From contig DASYZB010000035.1 of NCBI GenBank assembly GCA_035946615.1, positions 1-47,560 of the forward strand: DNA of 47,560 nucleotides, given 5' to 3'. The position numbers were made by a program, and so were the translations under genes. The notes under the pieces are model-generated. The model ran no database searches. It worked only from the letters and a program-made list of their open reading frames with translations, and had not been told where the DNA came from. The first letter of the stretch is position 1. Each line of letters begins with the position of its first letter. This document shows positions 40,399-47,560 of this stretch, in pieces. This DNA is from Verrucomicrobiia bacterium (GTDB lineage: Bacteria > Verrucomicrobiota > Verrucomicrobiia > Limisphaerales > UBA8199).

Positions 40399-41720
40399 TG
40401 ATTCACCACCGGCATGGGCCGGTTGTCTTGCTCCGCCTGTTGGAGGGCTTCCCGGTTGCGGATGGGTTTGAGACAGAACAGGCCGGCGAGTGAGAGTAAC
40501 AAGAGAACTGCCAGCCCGGCGTAAAGCGGAAAGTAAGACCCGGGCCTCGCCGCCGCTTCCCCAAGTTGCCTCACTTTCACGCCTGCCACCCAGTGCGAGA
40601 GATTGCCCAGGATACCGCCTGTCATTACGAAGAGCCCGAAAACACGTCCCCTGACGCTGTCCGGGACCGCTTCCATAATGGCCGCTTCAGTCATGGGGTA
40701 ACTGGCCATGAAGAAAAAACCGTATAGGAAGTACACGGGAATTATCCAATGCGCAGGCACGTGAGGCAATAGGGCAATCATCGCGGCCGCCGTGATGATA
40801 GCGACGGTCACCCAGCGCTTGCGGCCTCGATCGCTCAAGCTGCCGAACAGCGGATTGCTGATGATGGCCGCCAGGTAAATGCCGCTCAGGGCCAGGCCGG
40901 TGAGTTTCGGGTCAAAACCGTGCGCCTTCTGCAGGAACAAAGAGCCCAGGCTCCCCATCCCCGCCCCGGCAAAGTCACGAAGGCTGAAGGCGAAGCAATA
41001 GGCGCCGAAAAAGCCCCACAAGGGCAACGTTGGGAACAGGGCCTCGGCGCGCTGGTGCTCAGGAGCGGTTGCTGGGCGTTCCTCATCGGCCAATAACGCG
41101 AACAGAATTGAAACCGCGACGCCGAGCAGCCCCAACTCGAGCACTGGCCGCCGCCAGACAGCCGAACCCAGGGCCGGTTCCAGCATCGTGGCGCGCCAGC
41201 CGCTGTAGATTGGCCCAACGAAAAACCCGGCTCCGGCTCCAATCCCGACCAGGCCCAGCGCTTTGCCTGTCGTGCGCGGAAACAGCCGCGCGATCATCGC
41301 CGTTGCGGCTGGATGATAAAAGCTGCCTCCCAGTCCTGCCACCACGACCGCGGCAAGCGCCCAGCCGTAGCTTGGCGCCAGCGATAGCGCTGCAAAACCC
41401 AGACCGTTGATTGCCAGCCCAATTGCCAGCATCCGCTTTCGGTTATACCTATCCGCAAGCACCCCGATGGGATAGCTCGGTCCGAAGCAGGCCACCAGCA
41501 ACACGGTCAATAGGAGTGTGGCCTGTCCAACACCCTGCAAGCGCAGGTCCTTTTGAATCAGCAGGTACAGTGGCAGTAACGCCACCTGGTACAGGTGCGT
41601 GAACGCATGCAGAACCCCTGTCAGCCACAGCGTTCGGGCTTGATGCCGCCGGTCGGCCTGTCGAGCGATAGCTCCAGGTTCGAGGGGCTCATCTTGTTGT
41701 CCCAGGTCCAGGTTTCTCAT
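40395..41720 (-). CDS. MFS transporter
   Basis: Twelve hydrophobic segments are visible in about 441 residues. The major facilitator motif A appears as GVLADRYNRKRML between helices 2 and 3 and again in the second half as GSLSDRGRKRWV, giving clear pseudo-symmetry. A conserved RGRVFGLF motif lies in the C-terminal half. ATG 41720 overlaps the rhomboid stop (ATGA), so it is preferred over upstream in-frame starts, such as one at 41783, that would add about 21 non-conserved residues. Substrate cannot be told from sequence; its overlap with rhomboid and C39 peptidase genes suggests function in one membrane process. Confidence 0.92.
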   Translation of the reverse strand: MRNLDLGQQDEPLEPGAIARQADRRHQARTLWLTGVLHAFTHLYQVALLPLYLLIQKDLRLQGVGQATLLLTVLLVACFGPSYPIGVLADRYNRKRMLAIGLAINGLGFAALSLAPSYGWALAAVVVAGLGGSFYHPAATAMIARLFPRTTGKALGLVGIGAGAGFFVGPIYSGWRATMLEPALGSAVWRRPVLELGLLGVAVSILFALLADEERPATAPEHQRAEALFPTLPLWGFFGAYCFAFSLRDFAGAGMGSLGSLFLQKAHGFDPKLTGLALSGIYLAAIISNPLFGSLSDRGRKRWVTVAIITAAAMIALLPHVPAHWIIPVYFLYGFFFMASYPMTEAAIMEAVPDSVRGRVFGLFVMTGGILGNLSHWVAGVKVRQLGEAAARPGSYFPLYAGLAVLLLLSLAGLFCLKPIRNREALQQAEQDNRPMPVVNH

Positions 41721-42592
41721 TTGTATCGCGAAAGGGCGTGCCACCACGGCCAAAGGACGAGAGCCGTAAAAGCCACCCCACACAGGATGTTGAGTTTCAC
41801 ATTAAAAGCGGGTCTGGGCACGAAGCTCAGGAGTGCCCCAAAAACTGTTCCGGCGACAAAGCCGCCGAAGTGGGCGCGGATGTCCGTCTCGGGGCCGAAT
41901 CCAAGCAGCACGAACAGCAGCACACCGCCGATAAGCCCGATGACAGCATACTTTGCGCTGTGAACGTCTTTCGGCCCGTGTCTGAAGGATTGAGCCGCTA
42001 ACAAGCCCAAGGCTCCCATAACCATGCCCGAGGCCCCAAGGCTCCCCGGTCCGGGCGAGAGGAGCCAAACGAGCCCATTGCCGGCGACCCCCGCCAGGTA
42101 AGCCCCCAGCAAACCGATACCGGTACCGTAACGGGCCATGGCCAGCCCCAGCAAGGTAAAGCCGAAGATGGCATTGCCAGCCAGGTGGGCCGGGTCGGCA
42201 TGAAGCCAAATCGAAGTAAACAGACGCCACCATTGGCCATGGCTCACAGCGACACCCTGCATCACGCCAACCGAGCGGAGGTCACGGACCTGCGCATCCA
42301 GCCAGTAAAACACGCAGATCAAAAACACCCATGCCAGGCTGGCCCAGTCAAAGAGCACCCGGCCTTGGAACAGGTCCTGACGCCAGCCCCAACGTCGATT
42401 CTCAAACTCGTAGAGGCGAATCGCTTCCACTGCTTTCTCATTATCCGGTTCGGGGACCACAAGCTCCCAGGCCCCGGTTTCAGGGGAATGCTCGATGGTG
42501 CTTTCGATGCCCTGGCTGATGAGCACCAGGCTCCAGTCCATGGCCTGGCGCCGCGAGCGCGCCGCAATCCGGCCCTGTGCGGACTCATTCAT
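41717..42592 (-). CDS. Rhomboid-family intramembrane serine protease
   Basis: Cleaves transmembrane segments within the membrane. Catalytic Ser188 lies in GASG and His241 in AHFGG, giving the rhomboid dyad; His131, His136 and Asn140 (HADPAHLAGN) supply the oxyanion-side motif of helix 2. Six or seven membrane segments follow a soluble N-terminal region of about 80 residues with a VVPEPDNEKAVEAI segment, which resembles a small cytoplasmic domain of related proteins. Its stop overlaps the MFS start. Target proteins are unknown; sortase-free surface systems in Gram-negatives may use rhomboids for tail removal, but that is not shown here. Confidence 0.93.
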   Translation of the reverse strand: MNESAQGRIAARSRRQAMDWSLVLISQGIESTIEHSPETGAWELVVPEPDNEKAVEAIRLYEFENRRWGWRQDLFQGRVLFDWASLAWVFLICVFYWLDAQVRDLRSVGVMQGVAVSHGQWWRLFTSIWLHADPAHLAGNAIFGFTLLGLAMARYGTGIGLLGAYLAGVAGNGLVWLLSPGPGSLGASGMVMGALGLLAAQSFRHGPKDVHSAKYAVIGLIGGVLLFVLLGFGPETDIRAHFGGFVAGTVFGALLSFVPRPAFNVKLNILCGVAFTALVLWPWWHALSRYK

Positions 42593-42722
42593 CTATTCAA
42601 AATGTAGCGCAGGAGCGGCACAGTAGAAGCTCCTCAGCGTGGAGGCAAGGTAAAGGGCCTCCTCTGCCTCCTCTCCCCCGGCCTAATGACAAAGCCCAAG
42701 CAACGAGCCGCCATTCCTGAGT

Positions 42723-42931
42723 GTAGGAGACAACGTAAGGAGTCTCTGATCAACAGCTTCCAGGTGAAGCAAAGGCCGTCGGCAGCTAATCTTGATCAGA
42801 GTAATCGGTTAGTGACGGCGGGCGCGGCCGCCTGAAGGCGGCGTTCCGCATGTCCGGAACGCCGGCTTCAGCCGGCAGCCTCGTCGTCACTGAGGCATTA
42901 CTGATCAGAGACTCCTTGCGTCGTCTCCTAC
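42723..42931. mobile_element. Candidate MITE-like nested palindrome, 209 bp
   Basis: Terminal inverted repeats of 30 nt (42723-42752 and 42902-42931) match at 28 of 30 positions. Inside them a second, looser layer of symmetry appears (TGATCAG with TAAT and GTGACG on each side), then three hairpins: GCCGCC-TGAA-GGCGGC (42827-42842), GGCGTTCCG / CGGAACGCC (42840-42848 with 42855-42863) and GCCGGC-TTCA-GCCGGC (42861-42876). No target-site duplication or transposase is visible, so a long regulatory or REP-type palindrome remains possible. Confidence 0.6.
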
Positions 42932-42956
42932 AAAGGTTTGGAACTCGCCCTATGAG

Positions 42957-43042
42957 GCAGGCCCCTGGCCTGCAAGACGCAGCGACGGCCTCTTTTCCCA
43001 GGCCGCTGGCCTGGGCTGGTATAAACGAGGCCTTTGGCCTCG
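42957..43042. repeat. Trio of GGCC-N3-GGCC hairpins
   Basis: Three perfect hairpins in 86 nt: 42957-42973 (GCAGGCC-CCT-GGCCTGC), 42997-43015 (CCCAGGCC-GCT-GGCCTGGG) and 43026-43042 (CGAGGCC-TTT-GGCCTCG). All share AGGCC-N3-GGCCT, while outer stem bases and loops change in a compensated way. This points to selection on the fold or to a REP-like family. Confidence 0.8.
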
Positions 43043-43229
43043 GGGTCGGCTCATTAGGGTGTCACATAGCGGAAATGGGAGTGGAATTCCATGCATTCTT
43101 GAGTGTAAAGGATACTTTTCTTGGAATGCATTTTGCTTTATAGTACCGCGAACCGGCTAACAGCGCCTTTGGGTGCTGAGGTAACAGGCGCAGTCAGACG
43201 ATTCGTCAAATGAATTGAGATTAAAGACG

Positions 43230-43946
43230 ATGAAAATGATTCAACCCAATTGTCGGGCGCAATTTGCTGCGGAAGACATCGAGTTCATACTTTCTGTGCT
43301 CCGTGGCAAAATCGGGACAGCCGAATGCCTGATACAATTGCTTTCGGACGAGGAGTCGAGAGATTTAATCCTGGACGACGAAACTCTGCTTCACGCGTTG
43401 CTCGAAAGGCGGGGATGTCTGCGGGTCACCACGCGTTTTTACTTCTACATCCTGGTGCGCCATGTGTTTCGGCGCTCGGATATCCAGGACAGGGGGGTCG
43501 CGGATTATGTGGCCGAGGTGCTGGCGGAATTTGCGCGTTCGGAACGGGCTCGGTGCACTGTGCCTGGCCAGGCCAACCCATTGGACTACTTTTTTGAAAT
43601 GCTCACGGCTCTCAGGACGGCTGATGAGCGCGCCAGCTTCTTCATCCGCGTCCATATAGGCAATTATTCGCTATTCCTCTCAGGAGTTTTCCCGGAGCGC
43701 ATCCGCTTTCGCGCTGAAGCCCGGGGCTATCCGGATTTGAAGTATTATGAGGGCTTGGGCCGGACACAATATCGTGTGGCAAGCGATCACCGATTAGCCC
43801 ATCGCTATGAACTGACCGAGATTCTGAGCACCCTTTCAGAGCGCTTTGGGGCCACACGCCTGGCGCTGAATGATATCGCCGAACGGCTCTTTTCTCTGGG
43901 TGATACCGACTATTCACTCGAAGCGCTGCTGAAAAACCAAGGCTGA
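43230..43946 (+). CDS. Conserved-looking hypothetical protein (238 aa)
   Basis: Not recognised. It is hydrophilic and predicted mostly alpha-helical, with no signal peptide or membrane segment. Notable stretches are FYFYILVRHVFRR near the middle, a DYFFEMLTALR segment and a C-terminal ELTEILSTLSERFG amphipathic helix. ATG 43230 is chosen over a TTG at 43215. Codon use and length support a real gene. Its last 33 nt overlap the end of the HAD gene on the other strand. It follows the palindrome-rich island, so its expression could be affected by those hairpins. Confidence 0.78.
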   Translation: MKMIQPNCRAQFAAEDIEFILSVLRGKIGTAECLIQLLSDEESRDLILDDETLLHALLERRGCLRVTTRFYFYILVRHVFRRSDIQDRGVADYVAEVLAEFARSERARCTVPGQANPLDYFFEMLTALRTADERASFFIRVHIGNYSLFLSGVFPERIRFRAEARGYPDLKYYEGLGRTQYRVASDHRLAHRYELTEILSTLSERFGATRLALNDIAERLFSLGDTDYSLEALLKNQG

Positions 43947-47318: not shown

Positions 47319-47410
47319 TCAGATGCGCCTTTGCGGCTTTTGATTGTTGGACAAGCGCCAGCCAAGGCGCCCTGGTTTCGCATTCCACGCCGCATTCGAG
47401 TTTATGAACG

Positions 47411-47500
47411 CCAGGGTGACCACGGCAGACGCAGAGCAAACTACCGTTGCTGCCTTCCGGCCCTGGCGGGGTTCGTAAGTCCACATTCCATGGGCCCTGG
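47411..47500 (-). ncRNA. ffs: Signal recognition particle RNA, small bacterial (4.5S) type
   Basis: On the - strand the invariant domain IV loop is visible as CAGGGCCGGAAGGCAGCAACGG, read here in two parts (CCAGGGCCGGAAG, then GCAGCAACGG), preceded by GAACCCCG and followed by GGTAGTTTG. CCAGGG at the 5' end (near 47500) pairs with CCCTGG at the 3' end (near 47411) to close the rod. The length of about 90 nt and position before dnaX match other bacteria. Ends are set by the terminal pairing and may be off by several bases. Confidence 0.92.
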
Positions 47501-47560
47501 CAAGGCTCAATGTGCCGCAGCGCAAAGGGGGGTTCAAGGAGATTCGCCTGCCTGCCCCCC

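Follow-up and report, generated by a model that had tools for sequence, protein, structure and literature searches.

The palindrome at positions 42723-42931 of the window (the whole analysed stretch of DNA, 47,560 nt in length) is 209 bp long and consists of two MITEs of different families, one inserted within the other. It was concluded that the region 42678-42964 was very probably an ISAs1-type MITE with a REP doublet, which was later hit by an unrelated 101-bp IS66-type MITE. Genomic copies of both elements, their ends, their target duplications (for the outer element at the level of the family only), an uninterrupted sibling and like-ended transposase genes in related genomes were all observed. 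The nested insertion is clear, it is ordinary in kind and well documented in this genome, and both elements are new members of kinds already known; a mild peculiarity is the REP doublet that forms the body of the ISAs1-type MITE.

Two elements within one palindrome

The inverted arms were located at 42722-42752 and 42902-42932 (31 nt each, 94% complementary, with a spacer of 149 nt). The RNA fold of one strand of the palindrome reached -131.3 kcal/mol (z -12.5) and that of the other strand -124.4 kcal/mol (z -11.5), and in neither case did any of 200 shuffles equal it. Hence, the palindrome reported by an earlier sequence-only reading is real and its coordinates were correct for the palindrome. 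A second inverted repeat lay inside it at 42824-42848 and 42855-42879, and a REP-like hairpin motif was recorded twice in the window, compared to none in 100 shuffles.

The inner element ran from GTAAT to ATTAC at 42801-42901 (plus strand, 101 bp, ends GTAATCGGTTAGTGACGGCGG and GTAATGCCTCAGTGACGACGA). It was flanked by the 8-bp target-site duplication TGATCAGA, of which the left copy occupied 42793-42800 and the right copy 42902-42909 (both plus strand), the latter overlapping the start of the second REP-like unit. A search of the whole genome, a 5.6-Mb draft, showed that 42801-42901 alone was repeated throughout. The left end gave 47 matches at up to three mismatches, and its reversed control gave none. 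Further, 43 distinct complete copies were compared, a count that excluded copies truncated at one end or diverged, such as C10:1829, C72:14339, C87:6549, C91:34449, C113:29681 and C116:106388. The length was exactly 101 bp in 34 of the 43 copies. The flanking 8-bp duplication was exact in 38 copies and held with at most one mismatch in 42, compared to 0 among mismatched flank pairs. At the same tolerance, duplications of 6, 7, 9, 10 or 11 bp were observed in none of the 43 copies and a duplication of 5 bp in one.

When the MITE and one TGATCAGA were taken out, 42723-42931 was reduced to exactly 100 bp running from GTAG to CTAC. This was the commonest doublet length in the genome (17/46, with 37/46 within 95-108 bp), the 46 doublets being pairs of up to 140 bp drawn from 74 own-genome loci that were picked among the first 100 of 177 matches. 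The closest uninterrupted sibling, L290, was aligned to the joined window flanks over 162 bases, of which 149 agreed, and had TGATCAGA only once where the MITE is inserted in the window.

The entire 209-bp palindrome could also be taken for one MITE with 30-bp terminal repeats, as the complementarity of the arms and the strong fold would suggest. However, the inner 101 bp occurred at 42 other compared places, at 41 of them with 8-bp duplications of its own at no more than one mismatch, the outer 100 bp was uninterrupted in siblings, and the window's doublet was the only one of 140-500 bp among the 177 own-genome loci searched. Such a proposal retains next to no probability, and a single 209-bp MITE was rejected as refuted by the copy, duplication and doublet counts. 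The sequence-only reading, which had likened the palindrome to a MITE, was thus right as to the kind and wrong as to a single element. The 30-bp repeats that it described as terminal are REP-like hairpins in a subterminal position within the outer element, the ends of which fall outside 42723-42931, and the multilayer nesting arises from one insertion, the 8-bp target duplication making part of the layering. It had also regarded single-copy status as an argument against a mobile family; the search for copies across the genome found both the inner and the outer layer to be multicopy, and that argument therefore falls away.

The composite sits between two divergently oriented ORFs and upstream of both, namely a rhomboid-domain gene (41717-42592, minus strand) and a 243-codon ORF without a Pfam match (43215-43946, plus strand). 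A regulatory effect on these neighbouring genes is possible but unsupported. An attenuator, a recombination site or a structured RNA had been among the earlier suggestions; the fold, very stable on both strands, would be consistent with such a site or with a regulatory RNA having been selected for its structure at this very place. Against this stand the dispersal of both elements with target duplications, the position upstream of two divergent ORFs, and an Rfam scan of the whole window in which the small SRP RNA was the sole match, distant from the palindrome, with no family at the palindrome itself. These suggestions were left without support, and a role of this sort was considered very improbable. 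The bacterial small SRP RNA was placed at 47406-47502 on the minus strand.

Two minor features of the surroundings were recorded. Three successive short palindromes, CAGGCCCCTGGCCTG, CAGGCCGCTGGCCTG and GAGGCCTTTGGCCTC, occupied 42958-43041, immediately to the right of the outer element. The sequence GAGGCCNNTGGCCTC was present in 4 of the 332 loci examined, L001 and L102 among them being this same place.

IS66-type relatives of the inner element

An IS66-family element of 1854 bp, L117, was found in a genome of the same family (G009). It carried inverted MITE-like ends GTATCCCCTCAGTGACGGCGG and GTATTCCCTCAGTGACGGCGG, which shared 16/21 and 17/21 bases with either consensus end of the inner MITE, and it was flanked on both sides by the duplication CATTTTTG. 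The two consensus ends of the inner MITE shared 15/21 bases with each other. The transposase of L117 matched PF03050 (Pfam, 1.5e-34) and NF033517 (NCBIfam, 3.8e-59), and the element also carried an accessory ORF with DUF6788.

Further, the search of public contigs for the inner-MITE end returned six stretches, four of them in verrucomicrobial records. In the verrucomicrobial contig L190, an IS66-type left end was alike at 19/21 bases to the right end of the inner MITE, and the ORF that came after it was 76% identical over 78 aa to the accessory ORF of L117; no IS66 transposase ORF was seen beyond the end within the stretch examined. L192 and L193 held MITE-like end pairs and L194 a single end. 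The two non-verrucomicrobial matches were single ends only, looked like chance and were set aside.

According to a section of PMC11946415, IS66 elements have terminal repeats starting with GTAAGCG and 8-bp target duplications. The inner MITE shares with this family the 8-bp duplications and ends like those of L117. However, it is non-autonomous, only 101 bp long, and starts with GTAAT rather than GTAAGCG; L117 itself starts with GTAT. When the surroundings of IS66 loci were scanned automatically for GTAA..TTAC pairs bordered by 8-bp repeats, another IS66 element was recovered in a same-family genome (L105, 1307-3658; GTAAGCG ends, duplication GTTCCACC), and L117 escaped the scan because of its GTAT start.

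The own genome contained two IS66 matches, both at or near contig starts, around which no MITE-like ends were found at up to three mismatches, except for the MITE copy near the C4 gene. Since these matches were without such ends, the autonomous IS66 partner of the inner MITE may have been lost from the own genome or left unassembled. An end pattern for such a partner would be GTAAT(C/G)...AGTGACNNCGG.

Relatives of the inner MITE with different interiors were found in the same-family genome G012. Parts of G012 were identical in sequence to public Limisphaerales contigs, and the organism of the window would accordingly appear to be a member of that order. MITEs of ~180 bp that resembled the inner MITE in their IS66-type ends but had a GGAGTGCGCCCGTCCTCGGGCGCAGC hairpin as their body were noted in G012 and in a public Limisphaerales contig (L193 516-695, L196, L200 and L203). 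The inner palindrome of the MITE (query 104-170) also matched in G008, G017, G020, G021 and G034 (L031, L032, L036, L039 and L048); the inner-MITE ends were not found in these five genomes at two mismatches, and in G020 and G034 the inner palindrome was the only part of the MITE that matched.

The position of the inner MITE relative to REP units was also recorded. One of the 43 copies, that of the window, lay inside a doublet, and four more were situated less than 200 bp from a REP unit. The five REP-associated copies were L102, L067, L027, L056 and L211, of which four stood beside, not in, the REP unit. These four may lie close to REP units because both occupy the same intergenic regions, or because the MITE prefers such targets.

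True ends and ISAs1-type relatives of the outer element

The outer element, interrupted by the inner MITE, was mapped at 42678-42964 on the plus strand; its left 45 bp aligned to the family consensus, and its flanks were shared by paralogues. The left end of the window's copy, at about 42678, was diverged (CCGGCC...). The left terminal inverted repeat, GGCCTAATGACAAAGCC, at 42680-42696 (plus strand), had one mismatch to GGSCNAATGACANRGTC, the core of the outer end, for which 73 matches were recorded in the genome and one in the control. The right flank, AAAGGTTTGGAACT, was traced at 42932-42945 (plus strand) by paralogue and consensus alignment, and the consensus was lost beyond it. The right boundary at 42964 is therefore approximate: the end is eroded, and a gap-free consensus match extended only to about 42945.

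At the family level, the outer element measured ~178 bp, with the doublet as its core and with the ends CRGGGCYAATGACARRGTC inverted in better-preserved copies. Consensus-like flanks adjoined 39 of the 46 doublets at a score of at least 17 of 36 positions, a proportion that stands without a control. The test for duplications took the 20 doublets of the 46 in which both ends were recognisable by a loose pattern and left out the other 26. Flanking direct repeats at a score of at least 7 were found in 7 of these 20 units, compared to 2.1% of mismatched pairs; 13 units were without a repeat at that score. The repeats were typically ~10 bp, and further cases were seen by eye at L273, L274 and L277. 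At the outer copy of the window, with its eroded right end, no target duplication was visible.

A section of PMC11946415 describes ISAs1 elements as having terminal repeats that start with CAGGG and 10-bp target duplications. The ends of the outer family, CAGGGCCAATGACAAGGTC and CGGGGCTAATGACAGAGTC, fitted the 14-22-bp CAGGG-start repeats of ISAs1, one of the two starting with CGGGG. In both the end sequence and the length of the duplication, the outer family fits ISAs1.

A genome of the same order, G211, contained four copies of a 2230-bp element with the start CACGGCGGCTGACAAG and the right end CAGGGCTAGTGACAAAGTC. The flanks held 10-bp duplications GCCGTAGATT and GGCGGCCGTG in two copies (L323 and L324) and a 9-bp duplication GCTACGCCG in the third (L325); the left flank of the fourth (L326) was beyond the contig end. 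The transposase matched NF033564 at 4.5e-23, above the cut-off, and in a second frame at 1e-14, below it, with PF13808 in the first frame. The right end of this element shared 16/19 bases with the outer-MITE end and the left end 12/19 and 9/19, the element's own two ends sharing 11/19. The outer MITE has in common with the ISAs1 family the CAGGG/CGGGG repeat starts, the ~10-bp duplications and a like right end on an ISAs1 element in the same order. In contrast to that family, it is non-autonomous, ~178 bp long and has a REP doublet as its body, and its agreement with the left end of the G211 element is poor. At L323 (676-2590), the first ORF (488 aa) had a long N-terminal extension ahead of the ISAs1 part and continued in a second frame; this split could be due to a frameshift or a fusion.

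The outer end was searched for in 293 genomes of the order and matched in 109, many of these matches being single and possibly due to chance. The counts were 39 in G008, 52 in G004, 63 in G009 and 43 in the own genome, compared to 0, 0, 0 and 2, respectively, for the reversed pattern. Within the own genome, the end-pattern matches, read by eye, included no inverted pair 1-3 kb apart, and no transposase bearing the ends of either MITE was found when the IS66 matches and the outer-end pattern were inspected. Of the transposases with matching ends that the earlier reading had proposed to look for, an IS66 element with like ends and an ISAs1 element closely alike at one end were found in related genomes, and none among the own-genome matches inspected.

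A REP doublet as probable MITE body

The first REP-like unit, with a GTAG tag and a 5-bp stem GAGAC/GTCTC, was assigned to 42723-42746 (plus strand) on the basis of genome counts and stem covariation, and the second, an inverted unit of the same hairpin family, to 42908-42931 (minus strand). The hairpin unit GTAGGAGNCGACGTNANGAGNCTC gave 177 single-hairpin matches in the genome and none in the control. All five stem positions were paired in 80 of 105 units and not in the remaining 25; the stem types were GAGAC/GTCTC in 68, GAGCC/GGCTC in 4 and GAATC/GATTC in 2. The fourth stem pair was paired in 98/105 units (A-T 86, C-G 10, T-A 2), a pair that, alone among the five, was not prescribed by the search pattern used to retrieve most of the 105.

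In its anatomy, the core corresponds to a REPIN, with two GTAG REPs placed head to head. The outer layer might hence be a REPIN mobilised by a RAYT, a tyrosine transposase of the Y1 type, and its ISAs1-like flanks would then be incidental. The GTAG tag, the inverted pairs, the 177 matches and the compensatory stem types would be expected of such an element. Matches to the palindrome arm occurred in 11 of the 57 other genomes searched (two further genomes matched the MITE interior only), 7 of the 46 doublets had little or no outer flank, and GTAG repeats have been published in the verrucomicrobium O. terrae, as an excerpt of PMC3733652 reports. However, recognisable flanks adjoined the 39 other doublets (again without a control), the ~10-bp duplications of the family exceeded the control, and this REP was absent, at up to four mismatches, from all 35 Y1-transposase loci that were examined. 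An origin by RAYT was therefore regarded as unlikely. From the absence of the REP at these 35 loci, taken together with the flanks and the duplications, a DDE transposase was favoured, and the doublet was read as the probable body of an ISAs1-type MITE.

We proposed the following course of events. A ~178-bp ISAs1-type MITE, with two GTAG-tagged REP-like hairpins in inverted orientation as its 100-bp core, would have landed between the rhomboid gene and the uncharacterised ORF; an ISAs1-family DDE transposase (ends CRGGG..., ~10-bp duplication) would have mobilised it in trans. Later, an IS66-family transposase (ends GTAAT..., 8-bp duplication), again acting in trans, would have brought the unrelated 101-bp MITE into the right-hand hairpin arm, at its inner edge, with duplication of TGATCAGA. 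The product of both insertions would then read as a single 209-bp multilayer palindrome. We infer the transposase that moved each element from these likenesses, and probably neither element does anything other than spread. The composite illustrates that a deep palindrome of regulatory appearance, without a known function where it lies, can arise from two independent insertions, which should be borne in mind in structure-based scans. Dispersed MITE families are also put on record, together with their likely transposase families.

Having set the ISAs1-type MITE above the REPIN, we considered whether its REP doublet may represent a wider arrangement. In G109, a genome of another genus, 164-bp MITEs (L297, 1501-1664) had the same CAGGGCCATTGACAAAGT ends and, by eye, other GTAG-tagged hairpins inside. 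ISAs1-type MITEs of the order might carry GTAG REP doublets with the ends kept constant and the body exchanged between genera, so that REPs would be spread by a DDE transposase and not by a RAYT; we put this forward tentatively, as a possibility that is rather doubtful at present. In the case of the window, the REP family seems to have been spread as part of ISAs1-type MITEs, a point of relevance to the movement of REPs in the absence of a visible cognate RAYT.

Excerpts of PMC3733652, PMC3116915 and PMC6006769 describe GTAG REPs, BIMEs and REPINs with the same GTAG tag, a short stem and a head-to-head hairpin doublet. The present doublet differs from these descriptions in lying within a MITE with target duplications, in its 10-nt loop and in having no RAYT association in the loci examined. 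REP dimers within longer palindromes are described in A. variabilis and H. neapolitanus in a part of PMC3733652; the dimer is likewise enclosed here, but the enclosing repeat was assigned to an ISAs1-type MITE with duplications. The insertion of IS elements into REP sequences goes back to Tobes and Pareja (2006), as cited in an excerpt of PMC3733652; there, too, a transposable element lies in a REP, the inserted element here being a MITE. Among literature titles, none on these MITE or REP families was found apart from PMC3733652 (GTAG repeats), a search at the level of titles that does not imply absence from print. MITEs with the same ends as those of G109 and with different GTAG-hairpin bodies were also noted in G147 and G129.
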